Below are positions 17,511 to 38,085 of a DNA stretch of 39,192 bases, one piece after another. Origin of the DNA: a virus. The notes under the pieces were generated by a model. It ran no database searches. It was given only the letters and a program-made list of their open reading frames with translations, and had not been told where the DNA came from. The translations under genes were made by a program, and so were the position numbers. The stretch lies in IMG/VR virus record IMGVR_UViG_3300020735_000020, positions 1 through 39,192 of that record. One strand, given 5' to 3'. Positions within the stretch are counted from its first letter, which is position 1; each line of letters begins with the position of its first letter.

Positions 17511-17907
17511 ACCATTTAGACCAGTACTCTGCATCAAACTCATCTACTTTTAAATCCCACCGATCGGGTTCAACAAATATTTTGTTAGTATCCTCAAACC
17601 TTCCTTCATCTATTGTGTTAACCCATATTAGATAGTCGGGAAAAAAGATATCACGCATTTCGGGCAACGGTGCTATAAAGTCTGCAATAACATAATCCGA
17701 TGTACTGTTATCTGCTAACTCGCGCATACGTACACTTTGTCTAATTCGCCCGGCTTCACTAAAGTCCCAGTCGTTATACTGCTTACGTACATCGTCGGCA
17801 TTAAACCATTCTACAGTATGTCCTAGTTTGTGTAATTTACTTAATAGGTTTAATGCTAATGTAGTTTTTCCGGATCCCGGAAGTCCCATTATTAGTATGC
17901 GTATCAT
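17473..17907 (-). CDS. P-loop kinase, adenylylsulfate-kinase-like
   Basis: 144 residues. Walker A GLPGSGKT (8-15), then FNADDVRKQYNDWDFSEAGRIRQSVRMRELAD and VIADFIAPLPEMRD, a layout like APS kinase (CysC), where the DDVR and the DF...R segments bind the nucleotide substrate. It is shorter than CysC (about 200 aa) and the end is divergent, so the substrate may be another hydroxyl, for instance on a nucleotide or sugar. It overlaps the carbamoyltransferase by 4 nt (translational coupling). Last gene of the long minus-strand block. Confidence 0.72.
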   Translation of the reverse strand: MIRILIMGLPGSGKTTLALNLLSKLHKLGHTVEWFNADDVRKQYNDWDFSEAGRIRQSVRMRELADNSTSDYVIADFIAPLPEMRDIFFPDYLIWVNTIDEGRFEDTNKIFVEPDRWDLKVDEFDAEYWSKWFIENVLEIQQCL

Positions 17908-19385
17908 GAATGTACCTTAACTCCGTATCGTTGTTCGAATCGGTCTGCATCTAACCGGTCGTTAACCATTGGTTCACCTTTAATGTTTAGGCTGGTATTA
18001 AGCAACATAGGACAACCTGTTAATACATACCACTTCTCTAATAGTTCTCTAATTCCCGATCCATCTTTTGGTACTGTCTGTATACGGCTAGTCCCATCAT
18101 GGTGAACGATAGCAGGAAATAATTCAGGATACCGACAAATACCAATGACTTGCATATACCTAGTATCAGTGAAGCCATCAGGCATAATAAAATAATCATT
18201 GACATGCTCTTCCAAAATGATTGGCGCAAATGGTCTAAATTCTTGTCTGTGTTTAATTGCATTAACTTGATCCTTTATATTTGGTCCTCTTGGGTCGGCG
18301 AGGAGACTTCTATTACCAAGGGCCCTGGGACCAAATTCGGCTCTTCCGGAAGCAACTCCAGTGATTTTATCGCCGAGTAAGCTATCGAGGATGGCATTGA
18401 TAGGGTACGGTCCGCTAATCTCTGTACCGAGGAACGCATTGTTAAACTTAACTGGTCCGCCGTAAGCGAGTGCGGCTGCACCAAGAGAACTACCAGCATC
18501 GCCAGGATTAGGCATGATCCAAATTTTTTCAAAATACTCACCAAGGTTTCTATTAGCTAAACAATTAAGGGCAACACCGCCCATATATACCAAATTCGTA
18601 CTAAAGTTAAAATCCTTTGCACGACGTATTACATTATATATCAAATTCTCACAAAGTTCCTGAGCAGAACTGGCAATATCTGCTATATCATAATGCTCTC
18701 GCCAGTCCCAGCTTAATCCTGTATGCAAGTTTTCTTTAAATGTAATATCATGCTCGTTTTCTACTAACTGCATTTTCATTAAAACGCTTGCTACCTTACT
18801 ACCATATGCTGCCATGCCCATTGTGATGTATTCATCTTCGTTGGGCTTTAATCCTATTTCCTGTGTCATGGCGGTATAGAACAATCCAATACTATGCGGA
18901 TACTTTTGTCCCCACAACCTTTTATAGGTTGCACGACCCATGTTGTATTCTGCACCCCAAATACTGATAGTGTCCCATTCTCCAATTGCATCAATAACAA
19001 CTACTGTAGCACTATGAAATGGACTTGTTTGGAATCCTGCTGCCGCATGACTTAAATGATGATTGTGTGTACTAACCGAGGAATCTTTAAAAAATCCACG
19101 CAACTGATCTTTTAGTATCCTGTTGGTAGTTAGCTTGTTCCACTCTATGCCCTGCCCCGAATATAGTTGACGCAACTGTTTCTTCCACGGAGTTTCATAG
19201 TATGCAATGTGATTGATATCCCATTGCCCTAACTCTGCTATTAAGTCAATATGTATATCGGGATCGTTCTTTTGCTTGCTGTAGCGTTCTGAGTGCCCAG
19301 CAAATAAGATTTCTCCTTGATTGTTTAATATTGTTGCGGCGGCGTCATGAAAGCCAGCCGAGATTCCTAATATATTCTTTGACAT
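17904..19385 (-). CDS. Carbamoyltransferase, NodU/TobZ/CmcH family
   Basis: 493 residues. N-terminal Kae1-like ASKHA domain: NILGISAGFHDAA (4-16), the metal-site HNHHLSHAAAG (107-117), MGGVALNCLAN and NPGDAGSSLGAAA. C-terminal YrdC-like part: SGRAEFGPRALGNRSLLADP, FRPFAP and LLNTSLNIKGEPMV. The family makes carbamoyl-AMP from carbamoyl phosphate and ATP and transfers the carbamoyl group to a hydroxyl, usually on a sugar. Phage members that carbamoylate 5-hydroxymethylcytosine in DNA are also known. It is somewhat short of the 550-600 aa typical of NodU, with an abbreviated C-terminus. Key motifs look intact. Confidence 0.93.
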   Translation of the reverse strand: MSKNILGISAGFHDAAATILNNQGEILFAGHSERYSKQKNDPDIHIDLIAELGQWDINHIAYYETPWKKQLRQLYSGQGIEWNKLTTNRILKDQLRGFFKDSSVSTHNHHLSHAAAGFQTSPFHSATVVVIDAIGEWDTISIWGAEYNMGRATYKRLWGQKYPHSIGLFYTAMTQEIGLKPNEDEYITMGMAAYGSKVASVLMKMQLVENEHDITFKENLHTGLSWDWREHYDIADIASSAQELCENLIYNVIRRAKDFNFSTNLVYMGGVALNCLANRNLGEYFEKIWIMPNPGDAGSSLGAAALAYGGPVKFNNAFLGTEISGPYPINAILDSLLGDKITGVASGRAEFGPRALGNRSLLADPRGPNIKDQVNAIKHRQEFRPFAPIILEEHVNDYFIMPDGFTDTRYMQVIGICRYPELFPAIVHHDGTSRIQTVPKDGSGIRELLEKWYVLTGCPMLLNTSLNIKGEPMVNDRLDADRFEQRYGVKVHS

Positions 19386-20007
19386 GTTCTGCTATTCGTT
19401 GATGTCCTAATTCTAGCGGATGTCCGCCTGGGCCTTTAGGACAATCGCCCATCCAATCTACTAATGCGTATTGCGGCCACCCAATATAGTAATCTGTATC
19501 AATTTGATCTATTAGATGCTGAAACTCTTTATCCACTGGATACCGCATTGGCACCATATTTAAAAATAGGTAACGCTGGTTCATTAATTTAAAATGGCTC
19601 TGTAATGCAATTAATTGCGTTATCCATGTTTGATAACTATGAGCATCATCATAATGATTTTTAAAATAATCTTTTATCCAGGGAAATTCTTGGTCAAGCC
19701 ATCTACTGTTTGCTGTGACTGGAAAATCTCGTTGATTGTATCTTATATCTAATCTACTAATGTCAGTCCATTGACATATAACTAAATCATAATGTTCTCT
19801 AGTAGAATTATCCATTACTGTGCGAAAAATTCTACTATTACTACCACCAGGTAAACTTAAATTTACAAGTTCTGCATTTAAATCATTTGCTAACAATTGA
19901 GGGTAAGCTAACTTACTGGCAAATTTTCCAACGTAAAATGTATCGGGTGGACAATCCGGTAGTTCCATGCCAAATGTGAAACTACACCCTACTGCTAGTA
20001 TTTTCAT
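19345..20007 (-). CDS. SGNH/GDSL-type hydrolase-like protein
   Basis: 220 residues. Block I GCSFTFGMELPDC (Ser9), block II LSLPGGSNSRI, block III ICQWTDISRLDI, terminal GPGGHPLELGH (His196). Clearly paralogous to the 20077-20883 product (GGDSFIWGSELSDC, APGGHPLEQAH). It overlaps the carbamoyltransferase by 41 nt. Likely an esterase or acetyl-hydrolase of the same modification pathway; the substrate is unknown. Confidence 0.75.
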   Translation of the reverse strand: MKILAVGCSFTFGMELPDCPPDTFYVGKFASKLAYPQLLANDLNAELVNLSLPGGSNSRIFRTVMDNSTREHYDLVICQWTDISRLDIRYNQRDFPVTANSRWLDQEFPWIKDYFKNHYDDAHSYQTWITQLIALQSHFKLMNQRYLFLNMVPMRYPVDKEFQHLIDQIDTDYYIGWPQYALVDWMGDCPKGPGGHPLELGHQRIAEHVKEYIRNLGWLS

Positions 20008-20105
20008 TTGTAAATAAATGGATCTCGTTTACGTAGTTCTTTTAACTTTTTACGGTAACGTAACTCTAATGTAATTCTATTGTATATGCTTTTTAACCAA
20101 TTCAT
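20004..20105 (-). CDS. 33-aa basic microprotein
   Basis: ATG at 20105-20103, stop 20006-20004. The product reads MNWLKSIYNRITLELRYRKK, then LKELRKRDPFIYK: a single strongly basic amphipathic helix and a DPFIY tail. It overlaps the upstream gene by 29 nt and the downstream ATG by 4 nt (ATGA), and it fills the only gap between these two genes. Small basic proteins ending in a DPFIY-like tail occur, as far as I recall, in other phages. Function unknown; it could bind RNA or a membrane. Confidence 0.62.
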   Translation of the reverse strand: MNWLKSIYNRITLELRYRKKLKELRKRDPFIYK

Positions 20106-20883
20106 TGAATTTCTCCTGCATTATGTTGGATGCGTCTAAATGTGCCTGCTCTAATGGATGCCCACCCGGGGCTATAGCATATTTATTCTCTACTGCCCAC
20201 TGGTAAAAACCTCTTGAAGTTTTGGTATCTCCCCAGTTAGTGCCCGGTTTAAAAAAAGCCCAATTAGTCAAATCAATTTGATTTATTAGATCTGTTATGT
20301 ACGGATCTTTCAATTTTTCAACTGTATAGTTATATAATATACTTGACGCATCAACACAACTAAACATGTACGGAATACCTTTATTTTTTAAATAATTTTG
20401 TAAAAATACAATCTCTTTAAGTGTAGAATACACGGGCCAGTATTCCTCTGCTCCTACATGTTTAAAAAATATATTAGCTAATTCGTTAATACCCGAATGT
20501 TTTGCAGTTTGTTTATTCTGTTCTGCGTAATTAAATAGGACATCATCTTCAGTTAACTCGTTCCCAGGTCTATGTTCTTCATCGGCTTGCCAGGGACCGA
20601 TAGTTTCCCACCGGTTGTTGGCAACCGTAAAATCAAATCGAAATGGCCATGTCCATTGCACTATCGGAAATACATCTGTGTTTGTTTCACAAAAATTAAC
20701 AACATTTCTAGTAATAACAGTATTTCCAGCTCCGGCTTTAGCAACACAAGCGTATTCAATATTTTGTTGTTCAGCTAATTTAGATATCCAAGTTGATCGG
20801 CTATACCCGTTAGGGCCGTGATGTAGGCAATCACTTAATTCAGATCCCCAAATAAAACTGTCACCGCCGCCAAGTATGATCAT
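20077..20883 (-). CDS. SGNH/GDSL-type hydrolase-like protein
   Basis: 268 residues. Block I GGGDSFIWGSELSDC (Ser9), block II AKAGAGNTVITRN, block III PIVQWTWPFRFDF, terminal APGGHPLEQAH (His242). Longer than its 220-aa paralogue because of a middle insertion (about 95-150, acidic). Overlaps the upstream unknown gene by 4 nt. Same assignment and limits as the neighbouring SGNH protein. Confidence 0.75.
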   Translation of the reverse strand: MIILGGGDSFIWGSELSDCLHHGPNGYSRSTWISKLAEQQNIEYACVAKAGAGNTVITRNVVNFCETNTDVFPIVQWTWPFRFDFTVANNRWETIGPWQADEEHRPGNELTEDDVLFNYAEQNKQTAKHSGINELANIFFKHVGAEEYWPVYSTLKEIVFLQNYLKNKGIPYMFSCVDASSILYNYTVEKLKDPYITDLINQIDLTNWAFFKPGTNWGDTKTSRGFYQWAVENKYAIAPGGHPLEQAHLDASNIMQEKFNELVKKHIQ

Positions 20884-21962
20884 CTAGTTTCGTAAATTAC
20901 ACGGACTTGTTGATCGATATAATCTTTATCTGACCAATTATAATTATATGTTGCTGTGGCATCGCCAGTTGTAATGCTGTGTACATTTAAATGACTTCCC
21001 ACTAAAGACCATATATCTTGATAGTTAGTAGATCCAAAACTCTTAACGAGATCTACTTGCCCTACTTGTGGATGCCCAATAGTTAGACTTTTATCGTTGG
21101 GATCAATATTATTGTTAATCAACCATTGTCTAAACTCTGCTAAACGTTGTATTTGCCAATGGTATGCACCTGGATCATTTGCCCACTCAATGTCAAAATC
21201 GCCGGCGGCTTCTGTTTGACTATTTAATGTACTAGTAGTTAAGTTATCGACATCGGTTCCCCACATACCTTCGTCCATGAATACTTCATAATGATGTTTA
21301 CCTACTGCTTTGTTTACTCCCACAAATACACCACCCAACGGGCGATTGATTGTTTCAATACCAAATAATTCATAGTCTTCTTTATCTAGTAGAAAGCGCG
21401 GCGCATTAAACCAACACATTAATTGACTAGGTCTGCGCCATTCTGGTGCATGTACTGCCTTACGCATACTCAATACTAAACTTTCATACTCATGGCATAA
21501 CAAATTTAATTGACGTATATGCCAACGTGTGCGATTATCTGCCTTATTGTAGAACTCTGACATATGGCCGCTAACACCCTGTAAATCTTCAAAGTATCTG
21601 TGTAGCATGTTTAACTTATCATGTACTAGTGGGCCAGTAATATTATCATCATCAACATCGGGTGTAATAGTATTAGCTACACTAAAATAATCATCAATTT
21701 GGTATCCCAAACCAGCTAAGTTAATAGCAGATATACTATGATTAACTTGATTCATTATATACTCTGCGTTACGAGCACTTTCAATAAATCCAAGGAAACA
21801 ATAGTTCTTTTCCAAATGGTAATTTTTTTTAATTAGGTCGTTTAGTGCAGTAAGCCATTTGCGACTTAGACTATTATCACTGACATTGATATACACCGGC
21901 AACAAATTACCAGTGGTGTCATTTTTTAAAGTTATTGTTATTTGATCAAGCAATTGAGTCAT
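20880..21962 (-). CDS. Hypothetical protein linked to the radical SAM genes
   Basis: 360 residues, soluble, no signal peptide, mixed alpha/beta with few cysteines (C55 region, C156 region, C183 region), so not an iron-sulfur protein. Notable stretches: WRRPSQLMCWFNAPRF, RPLGGVFVGVNKAVGKHHYE and TIGHPQVGQVDLVKSFG near the end. It overlaps the radical SAM gene upstream by 17 nt and the SGNH gene downstream by 4 nt, so it is translated together with both. It could be a partner or substrate carrier of the modification system, but no family is recognised. Confidence 0.72.
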   Translation of the reverse strand: MTQLLDQITITLKNDTTGNLLPVYINVSDNSLSRKWLTALNDLIKKNYHLEKNYCFLGFIESARNAEYIMNQVNHSISAINLAGLGYQIDDYFSVANTITPDVDDDNITGPLVHDKLNMLHRYFEDLQGVSGHMSEFYNKADNRTRWHIRQLNLLCHEYESLVLSMRKAVHAPEWRRPSQLMCWFNAPRFLLDKEDYELFGIETINRPLGGVFVGVNKAVGKHHYEVFMDEGMWGTDVDNLTTSTLNSQTEAAGDFDIEWANDPGAYHWQIQRLAEFRQWLINNNIDPNDKSLTIGHPQVGQVDLVKSFGSTNYQDIWSLVGSHLNVHSITTGDATATYNYNWSDKDYIDQQVRVIYETR

Positions 21963-23250
21963 ACCATTCCAATGCGTCCGGTCTTTCAGACATTATATCT
22001 CTAAAAGTATACACGTCTTTTCGAATTTTTTCAAGTTCTTCTATACGGAGTTTGCCCTTTAATAAACCCGCTTGATATTCATTGGGCCATTGTTCAGCAA
22101 AAGTGGGTCTAGTTTTAAGTTGAATTAGTATGTCCCGCATAGGGGCTGTTCGCAATGTCTCCGGGAGGCCATCCAATAGTTCGTCTATCCACGGGTGTAA
22201 TATATTCCGGGGTAGTGCTAAGGGCGACATAATAATATCAGGTGAAAAACTAAAAACCACTTTAGCTAAAACATCTACTCCGAGTTCTTCGGCAAGCGTT
22301 TGTATCTTTTGAACTTCAAAGAGTCCTGGTGTAGTAAGAGTGAAGTCCAAACGGATCTGGCGGCTGTGATTGTGGTATGTAATTCCTTCGCGGATGTTCT
22401 CAAGCCATGAACTAAAATTAAGACCTGATCTAATATACTCTCCAATTCTGCCCGTGCCATCGATGCTTGCACAGACTTGCCAGTCACGAAGCCCAGATAA
22501 AATATCCCTGAACAAATTAATACCGCGATAATTAATGCGACTAAGATTAGTGTTATATCTAGCGTAAACATTTTTTCCATCTCCAAGTTCAATAATCCGT
22601 TTCATGTACCGCCAGTGTTGCTCGTACATTAACGGCTCACCTCCCACCCAATACACCTCCTCTATTCGGTGCTCCTCAACAGCAGTAGCAAACTCTTGCT
22701 CTACCTGGGTGTCTTGAAATTTTTCAATCTCTACCTTGACTTCAGGACGCATCCAATTATTCTTAGGATTCGTCAAGTCGATCATTCCATATTGTTTTTG
22801 TTCGCTTTCCCAAGCACTAGACAACATGTCGCCGCACATGCGGCACTTAAAATTACAAAGATTGCTAAATCTGTAATCCCACGAGACTGGTTTCATTGTC
22901 GTGTAGCCTGTTACATCAGTATGTTCCATAGCTTGTAAGTACTTATGACCGAATAAACTGTCAAAATACGAGCGGTAAACACTGGTGTTAAGTAGCTTGT
23001 CGTTACATACCTCACACTCTGGTAATACTTCCCCGGCCATCATACGAGTCCTCACTGATTTCATGTGGTCACTGTTCCAATGTTCATCCAGAGTGATTGG
23101 TATATATTTGCCAGTACCAGCTTTTGTGTCTATATATTGCGTAAAGTTTTGTGCAGGTTCTCTGCTGGCGCAACACATGCGGCGTTCAGTTTGCGGACTT
23201 AGATACGTATGTACCCACGGTGCCATGCATAGTGTTTGTGGCTTATCCAT
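21946..23250 (-). CDS. Radical SAM protein with an N-terminal twitch/SPASM-like cysteine segment
   Basis: 434 residues. The core cluster motif is C132-NFK-C136-RM-C139 (CNFKCRMC), and WVGGEPLM supplies the GGEP that contacts SAM. The N-terminus carries CMAPWVH (Cys8), RMCCAS (Cys26/27) and ECEVCN (Cys79/82), the pattern of a second, auxiliary iron-sulfur site. The reaction is unknown; members typically modify peptides or sugars. Overlaps the next upstream gene by 8 nt. Arrangement matches 25139, 27351, 28676 and 30012. Confidence 0.9.
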   Translation of the reverse strand: MDKPQTLCMAPWVHTYLSPQTERRMCCASREPAQNFTQYIDTKAGTGKYIPITLDEHWNSDHMKSVRTRMMAGEVLPECEVCNDKLLNTSVYRSYFDSLFGHKYLQAMEHTDVTGYTTMKPVSWDYRFSNLCNFKCRMCGDMLSSAWESEQKQYGMIDLTNPKNNWMRPEVKVEIEKFQDTQVEQEFATAVEEHRIEEVYWVGGEPLMYEQHWRYMKRIIELGDGKNVYARYNTNLSRINYRGINLFRDILSGLRDWQVCASIDGTGRIGEYIRSGLNFSSWLENIREGITYHNHSRQIRLDFTLTTPGLFEVQKIQTLAEELGVDVLAKVVFSFSPDIIMSPLALPRNILHPWIDELLDGLPETLRTAPMRDILIQLKTRPTFAEQWPNEYQAGLLKGKLRIEELEKIRKDVYTFRDIMSERPDALEWYDSIA

Positions 23251-23893
23251 TTAGTTTTACCATTTTATCTGTTGTGTAATTTTTGTAATAGTCGCGGTCA
23301 ATGATAAGCAGTTCTTTCGCTTGATCAATTGAGTCCGTATACGGAAGACAACCTGTTTCTAACTTTATAATACCTAGACACCAACCTAACCATTCAATTG
23401 AATCGTAGTTATCAAAATATAATTCTGGATTAGCACATGTTTTTTTATATTCTGCTATTGCTTGATAGCAAATATCTTTATTTTTTGTGTATATTATGTG
23501 CCTGCTATCTAATATATTAAATAAATTATCAATAAATTTATTCTCATCTACAAAGATTAAATTAAAATCTATGTCGGTTTTCATCGATTTATAACTTAAA
23601 AGATCAGCCGCACGAATAGCTGCAATATCAATGTAGTTCCCAATTGATGTACTACTTATTTCATTCTTTTTTATAAAATTTAAAAAAATATTAAAGTATG
23701 CAGCTCCATTGAATAAAATTGCAGTTGTACTATTTCGATTATGTGTTATATATACTTGCATTGATTGTATATCAGAATGAAATGTATTAGTAATAGGTTT
23801 TACTACAAACTTATTAAATTCCAATGATATAATAAGTAGTCTGAGCCAATGGCCCCCACCGCCGGGGACAAAACATATTTCTTGATTATCCAT
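23243..23893 (-). CDS. Hypothetical protein with a Gly-rich N-terminus
   Basis: 216 residues. Begins MDNQEICFVPGGGGHWLRLL, a Gly-rich loop after a beta strand that resembles nucleotide- or PAPS-binding loops of sulfotransferase-like phage proteins, but without the usual Lys or Ser-Thr, so the assignment is not made. The rest is Asn/Ile/Lys-rich. Placed between two radical SAM genes with 8-nt overlaps on both sides. Codon use is more AT-rich than its neighbours. Confidence 0.68.
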   Translation of the reverse strand: MDNQEICFVPGGGGHWLRLLIISLEFNKFVVKPITNTFHSDIQSMQVYITHNRNSTTAILFNGAAYFNIFLNFIKKNEISSTSIGNYIDIAAIRAADLLSYKSMKTDIDFNLIFVDENKFIDNLFNILDSRHIIYTKNKDICYQAIAEYKKTCANPELYFDNYDSIEWLGWCLGIIKLETGCLPYTDSIDQAKELLIIDRDYYKNYTTDKMVKLNG

Positions 23894-25139
23894 TTAATAT
23901 TTGTTTGCCTGCTAATTGATAATAGTATTTAAGGTCTTCGTATAACGGATGGTTAGGATTATAGATATTATTTTGTTCAAATGTTATATTGTCCCATGTC
24001 CCCCAATTCCACATTTTTTGTAAATTAATATTGTCAATGCCTAATTCTGTACATAATTCAACAAACGCAGGGATTTCTTTATAATTATCTAACTGTACTA
24101 CAAAGTCTGCAGAAATTTTAGTTGATACATTTAATTCTTTTGTTAATTTTGTAATGTATCTGACATTGTCTAATAATTTAGCCCAGTTACCGTTTACTCG
24201 TGTTTTTGCATAAGTTTCAGCAGAAGCTGCATCAAAGCTAATACGTAGTTCGGCAATATATGGTAACAAATTTTGAACTACCTTACTGTTTAAGTAACTC
24301 CCGTTAGTTTGAATTATATTTTGTATGTTTGTTTTGCCAGATTTAATTATGTAATCAAATATTTCAAGATAAGGTTCGCTTAAAAATGGTTCTCCACCTG
24401 CCCATCGTATTGATATAGGTTGAGCCTCAATTTTATCAATTATTAAATGCTTAATACGCTCTACTATTTGATCATTAATTGGACGACGTAAATGATCATT
24501 ATTCCAATTAATCATTTCTATTCTACAGCTAGGGCATTTAAAATTGCATGTATAATCAAAGTCAAAAATTATATCTCTAGGAATTTGGGTTACTAATAAT
24601 ACATCACTAGTTATAACTGTAGGTATTGTAGTATCTGCAATATTAATATTATACTCTGTTTTAGGTAACTGTGCAAAGAATCCGCATATTTTCTCATTGC
24701 AATAATGATATGTACCGGATAAAATCTCTTGTCTGATACTTTGTGCAATCTCAGAATTTAATGCTGTGTATATATCATCTAATTTAGTTATGTTGCCAAC
24801 GAACTTTGGAATCCAACTTGGACTCTGGCAAATAAAAATTTCACCATTATTGTTTATGCCCAATGTATTCCATGGCACCCTACAAGTTTGAGTGGCAGTA
24901 ACATTTTTACTATAGAATATTTGTTGTTGGCGTTGTTGATTTTCTTCTGCCAGTGCGGTGCCATCACTAACACGTAGGTTACTATATCGTGATGTTGCAA
25001 TATTAATAAAATTTTGAATTTCAGCAATAATTTTATCAGCTGATCCTTTTTCGCCTGCAATAAATTCTTCGTAACTAGGCCAACTTGTTCCAGCAAATTG
25101 TTTATACATCTTAGGATCAACTAACTTAGATAAATCCAT
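23886..25139 (-). CDS. Radical SAM protein with a recognition module at its N-terminus
   Basis: 417 residues. Core motif C198-NFK-C202-PS-C205, WAGGEPFLSEP (the GGEP), QTNGSYL and RISFDAA typical of the barrel. Here the accessory cysteines (Cys86, Cys104, Cys147, Cys152) precede the core. Residues about 10-50 (FAGTSWPSYEEF ... EIQNFINI) form a module shared with the SGNH protein at 7547-8398. The barrel sequence is closest to SPASM peptide- or sugar-modifying enzymes. Reaction unknown. Confidence 0.9.
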   Translation of the reverse strand: MDLSKLVDPKMYKQFAGTSWPSYEEFIAGEKGSADKIIAEIQNFINIATSRYSNLRVSDGTALAEENQQRQQQIFYSKNVTATQTCRVPWNTLGINNNGEIFICQSPSWIPKFVGNITKLDDIYTALNSEIAQSIRQEILSGTYHYCNEKICGFFAQLPKTEYNINIADTTIPTVITSDVLLVTQIPRDIIFDFDYTCNFKCPSCRIEMINWNNDHLRRPINDQIVERIKHLIIDKIEAQPISIRWAGGEPFLSEPYLEIFDYIIKSGKTNIQNIIQTNGSYLNSKVVQNLLPYIAELRISFDAASAETYAKTRVNGNWAKLLDNVRYITKLTKELNVSTKISADFVVQLDNYKEIPAFVELCTELGIDNINLQKMWNWGTWDNITFEQNNIYNPNHPLYEDLKYYYQLAGKQILNG

Positions 25140-26362
25140 TAGTAACCCATTGCTTGTGCTATCTCGGGATGGGTATCCATAAAGTTTTCTTTACGATGTG
25201 CATCTGTGCGTTGCATTTTAAATAAGAACTCTTGACCATCACTGCCTGCGCCATTTTCGATAAACTTAATCACATTATCTATTTCTTGCTGGTAGTGAGC
25301 ACGACGCCAAAATGTTGTTTTTAGTTTATTAAGAACTAACTCTTGTGCAATAGGAGTCATCTGTTGTACACTCATATGATCTGGGCTATGCATCATGTTA
25401 AAGTATATGCTACCAAAGTTTTTAGTTTCTGCCCAGTCTAATAATTCATCTAAATAATAAACATTCTGTATGTTTATAGTAAAGCATAATTGCGTAGTGA
25501 TGTTGGGAATACTATTATTTTTATACAAATGTACTTCGTCGATAATTCTATTTGCTATACTCCAGTCGGCACCATAACGTTCGTATTCGAATCTATCACC
25601 CACATTGTCTATGCTAAATGCAATGTCTACACGACCAAATTGTTGAAATAATGTATATGCATCAAAGTCTTTTGTACGTGGCCATTGTGTTGCATTAGTG
25701 TTATAATGAATATCAATATCTTTACTGTAGCCACTATCTACTGCATATTGCAATAAATCCCAATGCTCTTGTATCATCCAAGGTTCGCCGCCTGTAAATT
25801 CAAAGTACTTGATGTTAGGCAATAATGCTTTCATATTATCCCAGAACGTTTCGGTCTTACGTGGCCATGCACCTTGCTTTAACCAAGTATAGGCAATATG
25901 CTCTTTCTTGTTAAAGTCTTTAGGCATGTATGCAAGTTCTTCTTCGGCCCATTTACTACTAGACCACGAACCGCATATACGACATTTTAAGTTACAGATA
26001 TTGCCTAGCTTTAAATCAACAAACCATAATTGATCAGGGTCATCGTTTGCCCAGTCTACTTGTTTATATAGTTCTTTTAAACGAACTTGACTGTGTATAC
26101 GTTTACTATCTCGGCCAGCATCTTCTTCTTCCCAGCAACGATTACATGTTGCAGGCTTTTCTCCGCGGCGGAATTGTCTGCGCAGGTCTTGCATATACTC
26201 ACTATGATATGCTACTTCTAAATTAGTTTCATTTAACTCGTATTTCTTGCCGGTAGCATCTGTAATTTCTTCGTGTGCCATGCAGCACGGGCGTGTTGTG
26301 CCCATTGGACTTGCTTCGATGCTAACCCACGGTAGCATACATATTGTTTTTGGTAGCGTCAT
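25139..26362 (-). CDS. Radical SAM protein with an N-terminal twitch-like cysteine segment
   Basis: 407 residues from the ATG at 26362, which makes an ATGA overlap with the upstream gene; a further in-frame ATG at 26377 would add five residues. Starts MTLPKTICMLPW. Core motif C123-NLK-C127-RI-C130, with TGGEPWM. N-terminal Cys8, Cys26/27 and CNRCW supply the probable auxiliary site. A single stretch in the barrel (DIAFSIDNVGDRFEYERYG) fits the substrate-facing strands. Its stop is 1 nt from the next start. Confidence 0.9.
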   Translation of the reverse strand: MTLPKTICMLPWVSIEASPMGTTRPCCMAHEEITDATGKKYELNETNLEVAYHSEYMQDLRRQFRRGEKPATCNRCWEEEDAGRDSKRIHSQVRLKELYKQVDWANDDPDQLWFVDLKLGNICNLKCRICGSWSSSKWAEEELAYMPKDFNKKEHIAYTWLKQGAWPRKTETFWDNMKALLPNIKYFEFTGGEPWMIQEHWDLLQYAVDSGYSKDIDIHYNTNATQWPRTKDFDAYTLFQQFGRVDIAFSIDNVGDRFEYERYGADWSIANRIIDEVHLYKNNSIPNITTQLCFTINIQNVYYLDELLDWAETKNFGSIYFNMMHSPDHMSVQQMTPIAQELVLNKLKTTFWRRAHYQQEIDNVIKFIENGAGSDGQEFLFKMQRTDAHRKENFMDTHPEIAQAMGY

Positions 26363-27354
26363 TCTCTTATTCCACATGATTCATTACAGGCAAATATTTT
26401 ACCCTCTGGTACTGTTAGGTTCCACGTTTCTTCTATTTTATTAAACCATTCAATTGCTTCTTTAATGCTGTATTCTAATGCATTGTTATTAGATATAATA
26501 GGTTGTAACTGTCTGTTACTCGATCTCCGATTACTATTAAGAGGATAGAACCCTAAGTAACAGCATGGATATACTTCTCCATTGGCACATACATAAATTT
26601 CTTTATTCTTAATAGAATAACAATCAATTTTTCTATTAACGTGTTCGTCACGTACTGCGCCGCCTGGATCACTAAGATATACATGGCTATCTTTCCATAG
26701 CTCATCAAAATCTGTTTTGCCCTGGAAGTTGCCAATTACATGACTTAATCTACGATCTGGTGTAAACACAGGAAACGCATTGCGCCCATGATCAACTAAC
26801 CAAAACTTATCAAATCCTAACTGTTTACTTAATGTACGACATTCTTCAATTTGGTGCTCGTTATGGTCAAATGCAATCATTGCCCATGTCGCACATCCGC
26901 CGGCAACAATGAACTTCTTGGCGTTACTTAGTATAAACTCAAAGTCGGTGTTTTGTCTATACAATGCATGAGTATCAGCAAGGCCATCTAATCTAAAATC
27001 AACCCGAACTTGTTTTAACTTACCTAACCGTTCCCAAATATTAGGTTTAGCACTACCGTTAGTACTAATTTCAATTTGTATATTGGGGTTAGAATCAATG
27101 AAGTATTCGACTATTGCTAAACCGTCTGATGCTGTAACAAAGTCTCCATGATTACCATTTATTAATAGTGTATCTAGTTGTTGAATAAATTCTACAGAAA
27201 ATAGTTGTTTTACTTGTCCTAACTTCATATCAAGTACAGGGTACGTATCTAAAATATCTACGCCACGAAAGTTGCGTGGGCAATCCGGGCATGCCGCATT
27301 ACACCGTGTGCTTATTTCTAAATGTACACTACGTATATCACTATAGTTAATCAT
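26359..27354 (-). CDS. Radical SAM/SPASM protein (compact, C-terminal SPASM)
   Basis: 331 residues. The core motif is at the very N-terminus, C18-NAA-C22-PD-C25, unlike its neighbours. NGNHGD replaces GGEP, then STNGSA and FRLDGLAD follow. The C-terminal CYSIKNKEIYVCANGEVYPCC and CNESCG are a classic SPASM twin-cluster signature. Closest in layout to peptide-modifying SPASM enzymes or anaerobic sulfatase-maturase-like enzymes. Four-nt overlaps at both ends. Confidence 0.92.
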   Translation of the reverse strand: MINYSDIRSVHLEISTRCNAACPDCPRNFRGVDILDTYPVLDMKLGQVKQLFSVEFIQQLDTLLINGNHGDFVTASDGLAIVEYFIDSNPNIQIEISTNGSAKPNIWERLGKLKQVRVDFRLDGLADTHALYRQNTDFEFILSNAKKFIVAGGCATWAMIAFDHNEHQIEECRTLSKQLGFDKFWLVDHGRNAFPVFTPDRRLSHVIGNFQGKTDFDELWKDSHVYLSDPGGAVRDEHVNRKIDCYSIKNKEIYVCANGEVYPCCYLGFYPLNSNRRSSNRQLQPIISNNNALEYSIKEAIEWFNKIEETWNLTVPEGKIFACNESCGIRE

Positions 27355-28679
27355 TTTAAACTAGCAAACTCAGGAAAGGTATCCCAAAAACTTTCGTTAC
27401 GTAAATTATCAAGCAATTGGGTTTCTTCTACAAAGCGTGGCCAATGCTCTATAGCATGATTATCTTTCATTAAACTTAATAAACTTTGATAACCTGTTGT
27501 TGCTCTACGTAAACTATCTTGCGGTTCTAACCAGGCGATGTGTTCTTCGTATGCAGGGTAAATTACACTCTCTTTAAATTCCTTAGGGAATATATCGCAA
27601 CGATACCATTCGGGACTTTGGCAAATATTAATATTCCAATCCTTTGCTTGTATCAATCCCAGTCGAGTCCACTCTTTATGGAAGTCTAGTACATGCAATA
27701 CATTCATTGAGCTAACCGTGGAACTAACGTAAAAATCTACATGCGGGACTTCCTTCATCATTCGTTCACGATTTTCTACTGTTTGTTTCCAGTTTGCACC
27801 TTTGCGGATTAACTCTGCTTGTGGGCCCATGCCATCTAAACTTGCGCCCACGCTAACATTCTTAAAATGTTTCCAATATTCAAATACATGCTTGTCTTTA
27901 AAACGCATTTCGCTGAAGTTTGTATTATACTGTAAACGAATATCTGTTTTACCTGCATCAATTAACTTCTCTAATAGAGCGTAATGCTCTTTCATGATTA
28001 GAGGTTCACCTCCAGCAAAGTATACTTGTTCAAGGAACGGAACATGCTCGAGCATTTGTGCTTCCATTGCATCTTCATTCCCAGCAGCATACTCTACACG
28101 TTCCATGTCACGACCCAATACATCAGGTTTGCGATTATATAACTTTACATGATCATTATACCAGTTACTGCTAAAGATAGGCCCACAACTGCGACAACGG
28201 AAATTGCATAAGTTACTAAAGCGAACATCCCAGTAACGAATTTTAAATTCATCGTGCGTACCATCTGCGTGTGTTTGTTCTATTTCCTTAATCATATGGC
28301 CATAATTACGGTTAGCATCGTTACGCATACTAAATGCACCGTGCTTCTCTTGTTCATAACACTTAGTACATTCTACACAAGGTTTATCTTCGAGCATATT
28401 GCTACGCATTGTCTTATACTTGTCTTGGTTCCAAACTTCACGCATTGTGTTCTTGCGTAGGTCTCCAACCGGATGCCAATAGTCTGCTAAACAACAAGGA
28501 TATACACGCCCATCCGGAAAGGCATGCATGTGCATCCACGGAAGCATACAAAATGTTTCGCTATGTGTTAGTTTACGATATTCTTCTTCTGTTAATTCAC
28601 TACGCTCAATGAAATACGGGGCACGTGCATTGTAGTCATACCCTTTATCATAAAACCCTGCTACTGTATTGTCTGTCAT
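27351..28679 (-). CDS. Radical SAM protein with an N-terminal twitch-like cysteine segment
   Basis: 442 residues from the ATG at 28679, in an ATGA overlap; a GTG at 28694 would add five residues. Core motif C158-NFR-C162-RS-C165, FAGGEPLIMKEHY, and an N-terminal auxiliary set: CMLPWMHMHAFPDGRVYPCC and CVECTKCY. The barrel has GASLDGMG and INICQSPEWYRCD. Closest paralogue in the window is 21946-23250. Confidence 0.92.
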   Translation of the reverse strand: MTDNTVAGFYDKGYDYNARAPYFIERSELTEEEYRKLTHSETFCMLPWMHMHAFPDGRVYPCCLADYWHPVGDLRKNTMREVWNQDKYKTMRSNMLEDKPCVECTKCYEQEKHGAFSMRNDANRNYGHMIKEIEQTHADGTHDEFKIRYWDVRFSNLCNFRCRSCGPIFSSNWYNDHVKLYNRKPDVLGRDMERVEYAAGNEDAMEAQMLEHVPFLEQVYFAGGEPLIMKEHYALLEKLIDAGKTDIRLQYNTNFSEMRFKDKHVFEYWKHFKNVSVGASLDGMGPQAELIRKGANWKQTVENRERMMKEVPHVDFYVSSTVSSMNVLHVLDFHKEWTRLGLIQAKDWNINICQSPEWYRCDIFPKEFKESVIYPAYEEHIAWLEPQDSLRRATTGYQSLLSLMKDNHAIEHWPRFVEETQLLDNLRNESFWDTFPEFASLK

Positions 28680-30025
28680 AATGTATTGTACCACTCTGCT
28701 AGCGATGGAAATGCTGTTGTAAAGTTCTTACCACGACGGTGATCGTATTGTTCAAAAAACTGTTTAAAGTCCTGTTGTAGTACTGATTGTTCCGCGGCGC
28801 CAAGGTGTGGAGTTTTAACTACATCCAGATAATCAATTAATCGTTTCAATTGATCACGCTCAAACCCGTGCATAAATTCACTGCTATAATTGTGGTCTAA
28901 CCACTCTTGTAATTTTTCTCTGTAGAAAGTTCTAGTAGAATCGGGTAACACTAACGGTGATTGAAAACTTGGGAATCGTAATATATTTAGCGAGAAGTTA
29001 ATTGCATCCTTGCCATACTCACGTTTCCAATTCAATACCATTTCTAAGAAACTATCTAAACTATCCAAGCATAATGCATTAATTGTACACATAACATGAA
29101 GACCACGGAATTTACCACTATTGAGTAAACGTTCTACATTGTTTGCCCAATCATCAAATACTAGTCCATCACGGATGTATTCTGCTTGTAAGCTCATTGC
29201 TTCATTGCTAGTGTATAAGTCTATTTCTACCCCATCTATTGCATCAAGTAACCGACTGATATCTACGGCTGTGCCCAGGTTACTATTAATAGCAAGTCGG
29301 GTACTACTCTTACCTTTGTTAGTTTTAAACCATTCGATTAGCTTCCAAGTTTCCCCGGACATTAACGGCTCGCCGCCAGTTATTCTGAGTTCTTTGAGTG
29401 TTCTGTGCAAGTCGGATTCCCACCACTTGAAGAAGGCATCTGTGTACGGATTAACCTCACTGAATTTATACAATTGACTACTATCATGAGTATGAGTAAA
29501 GTGATTTCTACCATCTGAAACCAATGCGGTGTAAGGCCCATTGTTCTTAATATCTTTAACCCAAGTACTACTAAAAGCAGGATTACAGTAACTACAAGCG
29601 AATTGGCAAGTACGATCAAATGCAATCTCCAAAGTCTGGAGATCAACATCTTCAGTTGCATCCAAATTGTACGCATCATTTAAATCCTTATCATCATATA
29701 TAACTGTTTTGTAAACGCGATCACTTATGTTATCACGTCCTATATCTTCAATCTTCCAACAATACTCACAACCGCTAGGGCGTTCGCCCGTTTGCATTTG
29801 AGCACGTTCCAATTTCTTCTTGGCGGTATTGTGCAATGCCTTGGGGTTTGCTAGTACATCTTCCACACTTACTTTATGCGGTAATGGATGATGGCAACTT
29901 GTAGTCATCCCCGACCCTAACCAAATAGTAGCATTATACCATTTTGCTCCGCAGAAGGACTCTGACTTGATGTCAATTACTCTGCGTTTGTATTCTAAAT
30001 CCGATTCGTTATTAATTCTGGGCAT
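28676..30025 (-). CDS. Radical SAM protein, tandem duplicate A
   Basis: 449 residues. Core motif C140-QFA-C144-SY-C147, TGGEPLMSGETW, and an N-terminal CGAKWYNATIWLGSGMTTSCHH plus GCEYCW auxiliary set. It is plainly a tandem duplicate of the gene at 30012-31400: both have the LHNT, CSYC, FSSTW, NPYxDAFxxWW, ITGGEPLM or MTGGEPLM, AEYIRxG and TTFP or TAFP stretches. Start at 30025 with a 14-nt overlap. Reaction unknown. Confidence 0.92.
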   Translation of the reverse strand: MPRINNESDLEYKRRVIDIKSESFCGAKWYNATIWLGSGMTTSCHHPLPHKVSVEDVLANPKALHNTAKKKLERAQMQTGERPSGCEYCWKIEDIGRDNISDRVYKTVIYDDKDLNDAYNLDATEDVDLQTLEIAFDRTCQFACSYCNPAFSSTWVKDIKNNGPYTALVSDGRNHFTHTHDSSQLYKFSEVNPYTDAFFKWWESDLHRTLKELRITGGEPLMSGETWKLIEWFKTNKGKSSTRLAINSNLGTAVDISRLLDAIDGVEIDLYTSNEAMSLQAEYIRDGLVFDDWANNVERLLNSGKFRGLHVMCTINALCLDSLDSFLEMVLNWKREYGKDAINFSLNILRFPSFQSPLVLPDSTRTFYREKLQEWLDHNYSSEFMHGFERDQLKRLIDYLDVVKTPHLGAAEQSVLQQDFKQFFEQYDHRRGKNFTTAFPSLAEWYNTL

Positions 30026-31400
30026 GGTATTTACATTCGTTCCAAAACTCTTTCATTTCAGGAAAGGTCGTTAAAAAATCTGTTTGCCTACGTTTGTCGT
30101 GTTCATTGAAGAACCGATAAAAGTCTGCTCGTTGCAGTTTAACATAATCTTGGTCCAAATTGCGACCTTCCTTCATCCAGTCTATGTCACGACGCATACG
30201 TTGTACTTCGTAATCTTTAAAGCCCTGAAATGGGTTGTCTGCTGTTTCCAAATTAAGTTCCATCCAATCTGCTACACGTTCTAATACACCAACGTACACT
30301 TCAGGTAGTATTTGTAAACTTTGCCAAGTGGGTGTGCGTAGTAGTGGTGTATCAAACCAAACACGTTGATAGGTTGTGCTATGTTTTTTACGCAAGCCCA
30401 AGATCCATTCTAATTGTCTCTGTATTGCTAAGACACTTAGATTATTCATTGTAATAATAAAAGTTAAACTATTACGATATGGAATTTCTGTTAGGAAACG
30501 ATCAACATTTCGTGTTACCCGTTCAAAGTTCATTCCATGTCTAATATATTCAGCGTGTTCTCGTTTACCAGAATCCAAGCTAACAAACTGCATAAAGTGT
30601 TCAATTTGGGTGTTGCATAATTTCTTAACATACCCTAGATACTTTTCCATTAATGCATCTTCTACACTGAAGTTACTAGTTACATTTAAGTGTAGTTCTG
30701 GATTAGGTAACGCCAGCACATAGTCAAATACTTTATATGTATTCTTATCCATTAATGGTTCGCCACCAGTCATGCGAAAATGTTTTAGCTGTGGATACAG
30801 CTCGGGCCACCACTCCCAAAATGCATCAACATAGGGATTGGCATCGCGACTAGGTATAGGACGGTTGCGACCAGTAAAGTGACTGCTATCGTTATGAATA
30901 GTGCTTGTAGGATATCCTCCCCACTTATCGACTTCTGCTTGCCAAGTCGATGAAAACTGCGGGCTACAGTAACTACAAGCCAAATTACAAGCGTGGTTAA
31001 AATTAACTTCCACATAACTAGGAATAACATTATTTTCTTCTCCGGTAGAGTTTTTGATTACATCGTAATCTTCAGCAGCCCACTTTTCACCCGATCGATA
31101 GTGACGATCACTTAATTGTCCGTGTGCTTCTATGTTCCAGCAATAACTACACTCGCTAGGCTTTTCTTGTTTAAGCATAATAACACGTTGTTGTTTCTTA
31201 TGCTCAGTATTATGCAATGCGCCAGGATTATCTTTAAGCACACTAGCATCAATTGGGTGCAGTGGTGGGTGATAGCAGGAGTTATTAAGTCCTGTGGGTA
31301 AGTGTAGGCTTACTTGTTTCCATTTAGCCAAGCAGAGTGCAGGACCTAAATTGTCCTTCATCCATTCTGCTGATGCCATAAAGTCACTTTTATTTGTCAT
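30012..31400 (-). CDS. Radical SAM protein, tandem duplicate B
   Basis: 462 residues. Core motif C138-NLA-C142-SY-C145, MTGGEPLMDKNTY, N-terminal CLAKWKQVSLHLPTGLNNSC and CSYCW auxiliary set. Closest relative is the gene at 28676-30025. Coding density and codon use match the block. Overlaps the upstream gene by 11 nt. It is the first of the seven radical SAM genes to be read. Confidence 0.92.
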   Translation of the reverse strand: MTNKSDFMASAEWMKDNLGPALCLAKWKQVSLHLPTGLNNSCYHPPLHPIDASVLKDNPGALHNTEHKKQQRVIMLKQEKPSECSYCWNIEAHGQLSDRHYRSGEKWAAEDYDVIKNSTGEENNVIPSYVEVNFNHACNLACSYCSPQFSSTWQAEVDKWGGYPTSTIHNDSSHFTGRNRPIPSRDANPYVDAFWEWWPELYPQLKHFRMTGGEPLMDKNTYKVFDYVLALPNPELHLNVTSNFSVEDALMEKYLGYVKKLCNTQIEHFMQFVSLDSGKREHAEYIRHGMNFERVTRNVDRFLTEIPYRNSLTFIITMNNLSVLAIQRQLEWILGLRKKHSTTYQRVWFDTPLLRTPTWQSLQILPEVYVGVLERVADWMELNLETADNPFQGFKDYEVQRMRRDIDWMKEGRNLDQDYVKLQRADFYRFFNEHDKRRQTDFLTTFPEMKEFWNECKYHAQN

Positions 31401-32349
31401 ATATTTCCATTAATCTAGCATGATTGTGATCTAGTGTACCTTGCATATCTGCGTACATGCTTTGTAATTCTGAGCTAGATAAACTGTCAAGTTGGTCAAT
31501 GACTTGATACATCAGTTTAACTCTGTCGTAATTCTGATAATTATCGTAATCCTCGCTCCACCATTTATCAAATGTTTTAAAACCATATCTAGCTTTTAAA
31601 TTTGTTAGGTACCCCTGCGGACCAAATACTATAAACGGTGTCAACCCATACATAGGTCTAATTGTTTTTTCTGTTGGGAAAAAAGTAAGTCCGCTAGTAT
31701 ATGTTTCGCATACTAGTTCAATGAAAAAGCTATTGTAATGTGACAATGCCGACACATTAGTATGAAAATTCTCTTTATCAAATACTGCGTTAGGCAACTG
31801 TATTGGATTCAATTTGAGAAACTTTTGTATATTTTCTAACTCTGTAGGACAATATTTTACTATGTCGTCATATCGTATAACATTATAATCATCGTGATTC
31901 CATGACCCATTGCACGAAATCAATGAGTCGCAACTTGTGTTAAATGTTAAATGCGATAAAAGACATAATCTATTCCAATTTGGCCTACCCACAAACAAAC
32001 CAAACAGGTTATCTAATTGTTTTTTATTTCTAAATACATCGGAATAATATTTACTATGTAATACCGAATCATGTGTCCATGTAAACCACGGAGATTCAGT
32101 TACTCGAATATCGTATTCGTTGTGGTGTTCTTCAAGATTGCTGGTTATTATCGTTATATTTGATTTTTTAAAGTTTAGCGATTCGCAAATATTATCTAAT
32201 ATAGTATAAAAACCATTAGTTCTACAGCACGGGCCTTCCTCATTGAGGGATATAGTTACACTTCCTGTGGTATTGTACTCAACAATAATTTCAAGAATTT
32301 TTTGTTCTATTTCCCATATCTTAGAGTTAAGAGTTTTTACAATAACCAT
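31390..32349 (-). CDS. Putative glycosyltransferase-like protein (GT10-like C-terminus)
   Basis: 319 residues. C-terminal CETYTSGLTFFPTEKTIRPM, TPFIVFGPQGYLTNLKARYG and KTFDKWWSEDYDNYQNYDR resemble the donor-binding region of fucosyltransferase-like enzymes and match the 16344-17510 product. The N-terminal half (FVGRPNWNRLCLLSHL, SCNGSWNHDDYNV) differs. Located just ahead of the seven radical SAM genes and behind a second glycosyltransferase-like gene. Class tentative. Confidence 0.6.
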   Translation of the reverse strand: MVIVKTLNSKIWEIEQKILEIIVEYNTTGSVTISLNEEGPCCRTNGFYTILDNICESLNFKKSNITIITSNLEEHHNEYDIRVTESPWFTWTHDSVLHSKYYSDVFRNKKQLDNLFGLFVGRPNWNRLCLLSHLTFNTSCDSLISCNGSWNHDDYNVIRYDDIVKYCPTELENIQKFLKLNPIQLPNAVFDKENFHTNVSALSHYNSFFIELVCETYTSGLTFFPTEKTIRPMYGLTPFIVFGPQGYLTNLKARYGFKTFDKWWSEDYDNYQNYDRVKLMYQVIDQLDSLSSSELQSMYADMQGTLDHNHARLMEIYDK

Positions 32350-32350
32350 C

Positions 32351-33250
32351 TTATTCTCTGGCCATTGGCCCTAAGTTTTTAAATATCGATTTATAATGAT
32401 GCTTAAAGAAACAACTTTCTTCTGCACCCATATTAACAATAGGCAATCCTAAGCGTGTGCGTAGTGTACTGCCGATACGTCTACATGCATCTGCATCGTC
32501 ATCTTTAAATATATCCCATAACTTAGCTAGTGTATCAAAGTTTTGCACTTCCTTATAGTTCCAACCTTCTAACATGATCATATATGTTCCAAGACGTGCA
32601 CCATATATAGCCCAGAAGCCATTATCTGCGTCTGCTCCAACTGTTTGCCAAATACACAAATGATCGTAGTTGCGACTATGTACACGACTTTCAAATTGTT
32701 CTAATGTAGGTTTAGTTCCGCGATCCAAGCACATCTTAACACCTTCGCGGAACCCAGCTCGCCAGGCCTGGAACGGAGTTTGATTAGGGTATGTTGTTGA
32801 GTAGCAATCGTTCATTGCCCAATAGTTAGGATAGAAGCAAAATTCCACATCATTTTCATCTGTGCCATCACTTGCTTCATGTGTCCGCATTGCATAGATA
32901 AAGTCTTTAGTCCAACAGCTCATGCCGCCATTACCGTACATTAAGCCGTTAATAGCGTTACGTGCTCGCCAACGGAATACGCAATCTTTATTCGACTCGT
33001 CTAAAGTGAGCTGTGCATTGAAGAAAGTAGGGTCTGGCAGATTGTCACCGTCAATAAGAATAAAACGGTTAGTATCACTTGCATCAGCGGCCGCCTTATG
33101 TGCCGCATCAGAACCTTTAACGCCGTCCACTCGTTTTGCCCAAGGCACCATATTTTGAATAGCAATCCAGTTAGCCTCTTTATTAGGTTCATCATATGTT
33201 AAATAGATGCAGTCTAAATCTGCTACGTCAATTATTTGTTTTTCTATCAT
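32351..33250 (-). CDS. Glycosyltransferase-like protein (GT-A fold)
   Basis: 299 residues. DCIYLTYDEPNKEANW (first strand and nucleotide contact), VKGSDAAHKAA, then RFILIDGDNL with D67-x-D69 as the metal/nucleotide-sugar DxD motif, FRWRARNAINGLMYGNGGM and FQAWRAGFREGVKM. The C-terminal domain of the 1143-aa protein (12914-16345) is homologous to this protein, and its long repeats echo the first half. Donor and acceptor unknown. Two nt from the next gene. Confidence 0.75.
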   Translation of the reverse strand: MIEKQIIDVADLDCIYLTYDEPNKEANWIAIQNMVPWAKRVDGVKGSDAAHKAAADASDTNRFILIDGDNLPDPTFFNAQLTLDESNKDCVFRWRARNAINGLMYGNGGMSCWTKDFIYAMRTHEASDGTDENDVEFCFYPNYWAMNDCYSTTYPNQTPFQAWRAGFREGVKMCLDRGTKPTLEQFESRVHSRNYDHLCIWQTVGADADNGFWAIYGARLGTYMIMLEGWNYKEVQNFDTLAKLWDIFKDDDADACRRIGSTLRTRLGLPIVNMGAEESCFFKHHYKSIFKNLGPMARE

Positions 33251-33596
33251 AATACTCTATGTTGTTATATTCTTCTTCCGGGTATAATACTAGTGCCGCA
33301 TTGCCTGCTACTACTCGTTGTCCTTGTGTGCTCTTTATTAATTTAGATGTCAGCGGTATTTTAAAATCAAGTTTTTTTAATTCACCATTTATTACACGAA
33401 GCTGTGCAGTATTAGTAGTATGGAAAAATCCAGTATCGTCTAAGACAATATAGTTGCCCTCTGGGTGGTCAGACTCCCATAACCCAATTATACTACCATC
33501 TTCGTTGTAATACAACCTAAACTCTTTTACAACTTTAGGACGTTGTTGATCATATTCGGCTACTAGCTCAAGTGCTTTTAAGAATTCTGGATCCAT
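33228..33596 (-). CDS. Conserved T4-like phage protein of unknown function
   Basis: 122 residues. KVVKEFRLYYNEDGSIIGLWES, NYIVLDDTGFF, LRVINGEL and a later RVVAGNAALV form a small beta-rich fold like hypothetical proteins I recall from T4-like marine phages. It overlaps neighbours by 23 and 29 nt. Not obviously tied to glycosylation. Confidence 0.7.
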   Translation of the reverse strand: MDPEFLKALELVAEYDQQRPKVVKEFRLYYNEDGSIIGLWESDHPEGNYIVLDDTGFFHTTNTAQLRVINGELKKLDFKIPLTSKLIKSTQGQRVVAGNAALVLYPEEEYNNIEYYDRKTNN

Positions 33597-36474: not shown

Positions 36475-36489
36475 ATTTTAATTATCCTG

Positions 36490-38046: not shown

Positions 38047-38077
38047 GTCTATCCTTTGATTACTCTGTTTATTGTTA

Positions 38078-38085
38078 TATTTATG
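38078..38085 (-). promoter_or_regulatory. Possible late promoter for the tail-fibre gene
   Basis: The 59-nt gap between the two fibre genes reads CATAAATA on the minus strand, one base away from the T4 late consensus TATAAATA, about 30 nt upstream of the fibre start. No -35 box is evident. Suggestive only. Confidence 0.35.

Follow-up and report, generated by a model that had tools for sequence, protein, structure and literature searches.

Radical S-adenosylmethionine (SAM) genes have been described in considerable numbers in T4-like phages. The Campylobacter phages CP220 and CPt10 encode 11 and 12 radical SAM proteins, five of them in one module (2010, PMC2853527), and a later report lists 12 radical SAM genes for the T4-like phage TARA_ERS488813_N000010 (2017, PMC5332604). 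A host-recognition cluster with radical SAM cassettes is likewise known from pelagimyophages (PMC7029224). Herein we describe a row of seven radical SAM genes, designated R7 to R1, in the virus record IMGVR_UViG_3300020735_000020, a fragment whose full 39,192 bases constitute the window analysed in this study. An initial annotation of this DNA had called such a density unusual for a phage, which holds only in a relative sense given the 11-12 genes of the T4-like phages just mentioned (PMC2853527, PMC5332604).

Conservation of the block in viral contigs

Five of the seven enzymes (R7, R6, R5, R3 and R1), a companion protein called O360, a 33-amino-acid (aa) microprotein ending in DPFIYK and a carbamoyltransferase form a strict module that is located beside tail-fibre and glycosyltransferase-like genes. 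Scanning IMG/VR with R5 yielded 76 loci, of which 51 span the region from O299, the open reading frame (ORF) upstream of R7, to the carbamoyltransferase. The five enzymes, O360 and the carbamoyltransferase are present in all 51 with their order unchanged, and thus the block that the initial annotation proposed to seek in other large phages does recur there. R4 and R2 are accessories, found in only 7 and 3 of these loci, and the number of radical SAM ORFs per spanning locus ranges from 5 to 8.

Given that loci found with R5 are biased toward R5, the scan was repeated from O360, which adjoins the array but is of a different protein type. At least 543 relatives were identified, and the best 80 were used. 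R1 is adjacent to O360 in 75 of 76 loci, R3, R6, R1, R5 and R7 are present in 69, 69, 68, 63 and 62 of 69, and the carbamoyltransferase follows downstream of O360 in 61 of 62. Each viral scan covers the best 80 matches among records that are fragments, with diverged or incomplete blocks under-sampled.

The five-enzyme set is present in hundreds of uncultured T4-like phages of lakes and seas. A T4-type gp20 portal gene (PF07230) is carried by the parent records of 13 of 20 relatives, and the window is too short to tell. Marine contigs placed in bacterial metagenome-assembled genome (MAG) bins (L078-L081) retain tail fibres, O106, O264, O277, O299, R7, R6, R5, R1 and R3, as well as the carbamoyltransferase where the contig extends far enough, and from their tail-fibre flank we infer that they are phage. 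Among cultured phages, weak relatives of R5 and R3 occur only in Vibrio phages K566 and K567 (and in a marine single-cell virus), and no relatives of R6 or O360 were found.

Related phage records contain 6-14 matches to the family NF033640 each (20 records), several of which lie outside the block. By eye, extra radical SAM genes are located between or beside gp46/gp47-, gp32- and UvsX-like genes in three related phages (L263 10254-17884, L264 15915-18480 and L268 6074-11140), in one case with an AMP-ligase-like ORF. In the recombination region of L268 (13427-19452), DegT and epimerase-like genes follow a second carbamoyltransferase gene.

Integrity and family membership of the enzymes

All seven ORFs are intact and on the minus strand, and each carries a single CX3CX2C motif, as the initial annotation had reported; shuffled versions of the seven proteins gave a mean of 0.03 motif-bearing proteins against 7 in the real set. 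The numbers by which the genes had been located (21946, 23886 and so on) are low-coordinate (3') gene ends rather than motif sites. Adjoining genes do overlap, by 1-19 nucleotides (nt) rather than the 4-19 nt first given, and a single non-radical-SAM ORF of 216 aa (23243-23893) separates R2 from R1. For R5, the ATG at 28679 is a more probable start than the GTG at 28694, and would create an ATGA overlap with R6. The T4 late-promoter core TATAAATA is absent from the whole window, against 7.9 occurrences (standard deviation 2.7) expected from shuffles.

The seven proteins share only about 20-30% pairwise identity. Extra N-terminal cysteines are present in six of them (R1, R2, R3, R5, R6 and R7), precisely as originally noted, and Pfam (PF13186) recognises this region as a SPASM-type cluster domain in R2, R3 and R5. 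R4 is devoid of the N-terminal domain, and the GGE motif is missing from it and from five of its seven homologues. As for the C-terminal SPASM site formerly assigned to one protein, R4 has six C-terminal cysteines, but the Pfam SPASM model PF13186 does not match it. We defined membership of NF033640 (N_Twi_rSAM) by a whole-protein score above 170 bits. In the subfamily search that had been recommended, R1, R3, R5, R6 and R7 pass this cut-off, whereas R2 (97.8 bits) and R4 (27.2 bits) miss it. Several of the proteins show weak similarity to the prokaryotic viperin model NF038283, and a viperin identity was rejected on a best score of 58.9 bits against a cut-off of 180.

The cysteine motifs are unbroken in essentially all distinct orthologues of the core enzymes (93-115 each). 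Neither of the two outcomes that the initial annotation had named as refuting its reading was thus obtained, since the motifs are not disrupted in several copies and the neighbourhood is conserved elsewhere. CX3CX2C and GGE are preserved in every one (93 of 93 for R7), and the N-terminal pattern C-x(15-22)-C...CxxC is found in 108/108 orthologues of R1, 115/115 of R3, 108/108 of R5, 109/111 of R6 and 88/93 of R7. This four-cysteine pattern constitutes a putative cluster site of the twitch/SPASM type. Ratios of nonsynonymous to synonymous substitution (dN/dS) relative to the closest relative are 0.03-0.13 for six of the window's radical SAM genes (R2 has no orthologue there); the core enzymes are under purifying selection and appear to be active. 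The sole broken core gene noticed was an R1 apparently split into two ORFs (L021 12951-14245), for which an assembly error is possible.

The predicted model of R5 adopts a radical SAM fold with a predicted local distance difference test (pLDDT) score of 78, and is poor around the core-cluster loop. BlsE, SkfB, DesII and anSME are tied as its best structural matches (Z about 9.2-9.5), and sactipeptide maturases, SuiB and viperins also appear among the structural matches.

Origin and bacterial counterparts

The initial annotation attributed the array to duplication and divergence within the phage, and suggested a phylogeny as a check for one expansion. Our trees, which are quick runs with some long branches, do not bear this out. 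A separate clade is recovered for each core enzyme, comprising freshwater phages, marine phages and chromosomal homologues from Bdellovibrionota, and a single phage clade is rejected by the approximately unbiased (AU) test (p-AU 1.2e-6 with all phage rows, 6.5e-7 with freshwater rows). The five-enzyme set had thus differentiated before these phages diverged, and the core five are ancient paralogues, with R6 and R7 as sisters. R2 and R4 lie on long branches outside the five clades, and are accessories of separate or uncertain origin.

R6 is about 55% identical to its Bdellovibrionota counterpart, which suggests gene exchange between phages and these bacteria in either direction. Genes of the R6/R7 type occur in 59 of 241 Bdellovibrionota genomes. 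O360 homologues are present in 12 genomes, all of them among the 59 (Fisher p 1.8e-8, a value that ignores shared ancestry), and one overlaps an R7-type gene by 4 nt. The five-enzyme set also occurs, in part dispersed, in Bdellovibrio-type bacteria. A protein of about 320 aa with a nucleotidyltransferase-like SDLDLT motif (by eye) is encoded beside R6/R7-type genes at L219 2873-3835 and at seven other Bdellovibrionota loci.

Two bacterial MAGs are denser still, with 26 and 81 matches to NF033640. The latter is the 2.9-Mb Elusimicrobia MAG MJ-2014_bin-0981 (G027; L092, L104), wherein many of the proteins are fused to TPR repeats and arranged in head-to-tail arrays.

O360, the microprotein and the carbamoyltransferase

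No family match was found for O360 in Pfam or NCBIfam, and Foldseek alone gave no significant match. Its predicted model (pLDDT 85) returned a VIA list headed by twelve cyclophilin-type chains (Z 7.3-8.4), with the next rows at 5.2. This is suggestive of a cyclophilin-like barrel with a helical insertion.

Only one small ORF fits in the block, namely 20004-20105, which encodes MNWLKSIYNRITLELRYRKKLKELRKRDPFIYK. This microprotein was identified at 148 loci, represented by about 100 distinct sequences, and usually overlaps its neighbours. The terminal DPFIYK is invariant while its codons vary, and the ratio of nonsynonymous to synonymous polymorphism (pN/pS) is 0.14, with pS saturated. A pattern scan anchored on the C-terminus recovered 80 loci, several of which are short, such that the neighbour counts are lower bounds: the carbamoyltransferase is present in 67 and any radical SAM gene in 20. 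Elsewhere the usual upstream neighbour is a primase-like gene, and the microprotein is absent from the 241 Bdellovibrionota genomes. Although its recurrence at 148 loci had first suggested a dedicated radical SAM precursor, these associations argue against that role, and we view it primarily as a carbamoyltransferase partner that belongs to the block as well. The microprotein-carbamoyltransferase unit (L301-L380) is widespread in viral contigs that lack radical SAM genes.

Neighbouring genes and inserted ORFs

The features of the region are listed in Table 1. The opposite strand encodes a nucleoside diphosphate (NDP)-sugar epimerase and a DegT sugar aminotransferase, together with a thymidylate synthase and a dihydrofolate reductase (the latter two by eye), and the family search also revealed a small kinase-like protein near the block. 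In relatives, ORFs inserted between radical SAM genes belong mostly to a GTx-like family (80 ORFs), followed by SGNH-like proteins; epimerases, a cytidylyltransferase and DegT are found as well. O319 aligns with such inserts, and the GTx/O319 family gave no Pfam match in 30 members and nothing by profile against the PDB. O299 also has no family or PDB sequence match. In three other loci, the interval from R5 to R3 contains ORFs resembling the 216-aa ORF that separates R2 from R1; at L051 11690-13459, the same interval holds a B12-binding radical SAM gene.

Farther downstream, a 1143-aa protein (12914-16345, minus strand) contains about seven tandem repeats of the form FDYSWxPNPxDPPYxYVFGNQW...VPGATExKYMD. 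It has no family match, and its C-terminal part resembles O299 by eye.

Table 1. Coordinates and assignments of the block and flanking genes
Feature	Coordinates	Strand	Best evidence	Remarks
R7	30012..31400	-	NF033640 E=4e-90, 302.7 bits, above cut-off	Core, N-terminal twitch; 51/51 loci
R6	28676..30025	-	NF033640 E=1e-85, 287.8 bits	Core, N-terminal twitch; sister of R7; 51/51 loci
R5	27351..28694	-	NF033640 E=3e-118, 395.4 bits; Pfam SPASM residues 49-112	Core, N-terminal twitch
R4	26359..27354	-	Under all NCBIfam cut-offs; best TIGR04317, 3e-8	Accessory, SPASM-like, without twitch; 7/51 loci
R3	25139..26377	-	NF033640 E=6e-102, 341.7 bits	Core, N-terminal twitch; 51/51 loci
R2	23886..25139	-	NF033640 97.8 bits, cut-off 170	Accessory, twitch-family-like; 3/51 loci
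216-aa ORF between R2 and R1	23243..23893	-	No Pfam match; weak sub-cut-off NCBIfam match	Accessory
R1	21946..23250	-	NF033640 E=9e-86, 288.5 bits	Core, N-terminal twitch; directly upstream of O360
O360, conserved companion	20880..21962	-	No family match	Predicted cyclophilin-like barrel with helical insertion
SGNH-like protein SGb	20077..20883	-	SGNH-type motifs by sequence reading only; no Pfam match	35/51 loci
33-aa microprotein, DPFIYK end	20004..20105	-		Overlaps both neighbours
SGNH-like protein SGa, DUF6071	19345..20007	-	Pfam PF19547 E=2e-10
O-carbamoyltransferase, TobZ/novobiocin type	17904..19385	-	PF16861 and PF02543; PDB relatives NovN, GdmN, TobZ
O319, TEK..P signature	31390..32349	-	Related to the 16344-17510 ORF	Accessory
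O299, upstream of R7	32351..33250	-	Glycosyltransferase-like motifs by eye only	50/51 loci
O277, glycogenin (GT8)-like glycosyltransferase	33568..34401	-	Profile against PDB: glycogenin E=0.001
O264, GT-A-like by eye	34388..35182	-	No PDB sequence match	48/51 loci
Tail-fibre/tail-collar genes	35524..39071	-	PHROG tail families for 36490-38046 and 38106-39071	Relatives have the same flank

Proposed function and alternatives

We tentatively favour the possibility that the block is a tailoring pathway for a phage-specified surface glycan, which would be modified in successive radical steps. This pathway would be a conserved part of a 'host-recognition' island of T4-like phages, wherein the five obligate N-terminal-twitch enzymes, O360 and the carbamoyltransferase would act together on one product. 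A single shared product, with the enzymes in series, is suggested because no core gene is missing from any spanning locus and extra copies occur only as additions; several modifications of one product would fit this obligate co-occurrence. The adjacent glycosyltransferase-like, epimerase and sugar-aminotransferase genes would make or remodel this product, most likely a sugar or glycan, and the presumed chemistry of each enzyme is the oxidation, epimerisation or joining of unactivated positions by means of a SAM-derived radical. Such a glycan might decorate the virion or the host surface, and thereby serve in receptor choice or in the exclusion of competing phages.

A glycan is favoured on account of the sugar-gene surroundings of the block, the content of its inserts, and the polysaccharide-type neighbours of some Bdellovibrionota relatives, which adjoin GT2/GT1 glycosyltransferases, ABC exporters and DegT/carbamoyltransferase-like genes. 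In addition, the radical SAM clusters of two cultured phages, CP220 and the Pelagibacter phage Mosig, are unrelated to that of the window, and both are paired with sugar genes. The top structural matches of R5 include two sugar enzymes, BlsE and DesII, tied with SkfB, a maturase of ribosomally synthesised and post-translationally modified peptides (RiPPs).

Several observations nevertheless weigh against a glycan. The structural matches of R5 do not separate sugar enzymes from peptide enzymes, and the glycosyltransferase status of the commonest insert (GTx-like) and of O299 derives from motifs only, without a family match. Moreover, recognisable polysaccharide loci are a minority of 20 Bdellovibrionota loci, many of which are in housekeeping surroundings. 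No family member with an established reaction was found, nor, in the open-access literature, any paper on the reaction of NF033640.

The main rival, which we consider doubtful, is that the block modifies a protein or peptide, introducing cross-links, thioethers, epimers or hydroxylations into a tail-fibre protein, O360 or the DPFIYK microprotein in a RiPP-like manner. Most characterised SPASM/twitch enzymes mature peptides, and SkfB, sactipeptide maturases, anSME and SuiB all appear among the structural matches. The operon of almost every locus includes the highly constrained microprotein, while O360 looks like a cyclophilin, a fold able to bind X-Pro peptides, and co-occurs with R6/R7-type genes in bacteria, once with a 4-nt overlap. 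However, the microprotein tracks the carbamoyltransferase rather than the radical SAM genes, often follows a primase-like gene and is lacking in Bdellovibrionota, and no other small ORF in the block could take its place.

It is unlikely that these are independent auxiliary or counter-defence enzymes (viperin-like nucleotide modification, for example) that are clustered only for co-expression. Although viperins are among the structural matches, the weak similarity to the viperin model falls far under its cut-off. The radical SAM genes that related phages carry outside the block would suit such enzymes, but independent enzymes need not occur, all five in order, in every spanning locus. In a comparably unlikely proposal, the five enzymes, O360 and the carbamoyltransferase would assemble a product of a new kind on a carrier of protein nature, either O360 or the DPFIYK microprotein, by a chemistry unlike known RiPP, glycan or DNA modification that T4-like phages and Bdellovibrionota share. 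Slightly less credible is a host-derived metabolic cassette for cofactor or redox purposes, unconnected to surface chemistry; some Bdellovibrionota sets of the same enzymes do lack adjoining sugar genes, but in freshwater and marine phages alike the block has a fixed place between the tail-fibre/glycosyltransferase-like genes and the carbamoyltransferase.

We regard as very improbable a DNA base hypermodification in which the carbamoyltransferase would act on 5-hydroxymethylcytosine (5hmC) ahead of radical SAM remodelling: a metagenomic phage-type carbamoyltransferase does carbamoylate 5hmC (PMC8670742), and the N-twitch genes of some relatives adjoin gp32-, uvsX-, gp46/47- and primase-like genes, but DNA-modifying carbamoyltransferases accompany the Asp form of thymidylate synthase, Asp177 being reported for modified contigs and neighbouring glycosyltransferases for those without modification (PMC8670742), whereas the window and 14 relatives, whose records may be incomplete, each have a single thymidylate synthase, all with the deoxyuridylate (dUMP)-type Asn at the 177-equivalent position (deoxycytidylate, dCMP, needs Asp), and no homologue of the dCMP/dUMP hydroxymethylase type.

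Radical SAM proteins of the N-twitch type abound (81 matches in the Elusimicrobia MAG and 6-14 per related phage record) and have no assigned reaction. A strictly conserved five-enzyme set with fixed partners gives this loosely knit family a definite pathway amenable to reconstitution. Whether it tailors a glycan, as we tentatively favour, or a protein, the pathway would reveal the chemistry by which large aquatic phages elaborate surfaces or proteins.

Comparison with known systems

In the open-access literature, we found neither the five-part orthologous set nor its O360 partner described, and likewise no account of the DPFIYK microprotein or of a Bdellovibrionota counterpart to the set. The carbamoyltransferase of the window is homologous to the TobZ and novobiocin O-carbamoyltransferases. 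TARA_ERS488813_N000010 is comparable as an uncultured T4-like phage of similar overall density, and the comparison covers density alone.

The pelagimyophage cluster and phage Mosig resemble the window in bringing together tail fibres, sugar genes, a carbamoyltransferase, an aminotransferase and radical SAM genes. The pelagimyophage cluster is characterised by its place between VrlC and gp14, genes that fall outside the window; within the window, the block adjoins tail-fibre genes. In Mosig, the radical SAM cluster occurs with an aminotransferase, a carbamoyltransferase and an epimerase, near a tail fibre and VrlC. Unlike those of the window, however, its enzymes are annotated as MoaA-like and none matches N_Twi_rSAM. 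CP220 is similar in being T4-like and in having two nucleotide-diphospho-sugar transferases next to a run of five radical SAM genes, but its radical SAM proteins fall under the N_Twi cut-off (best 31 bits) and its module was described as interchangeable. NF033640 itself is a catalogue entry, whereas the block presented herein unites five of its sub-clades as one obligate set. Thus, T4-like phages rich in radical SAM genes were already known, and it is the strict five-enzyme module that seems to be new.

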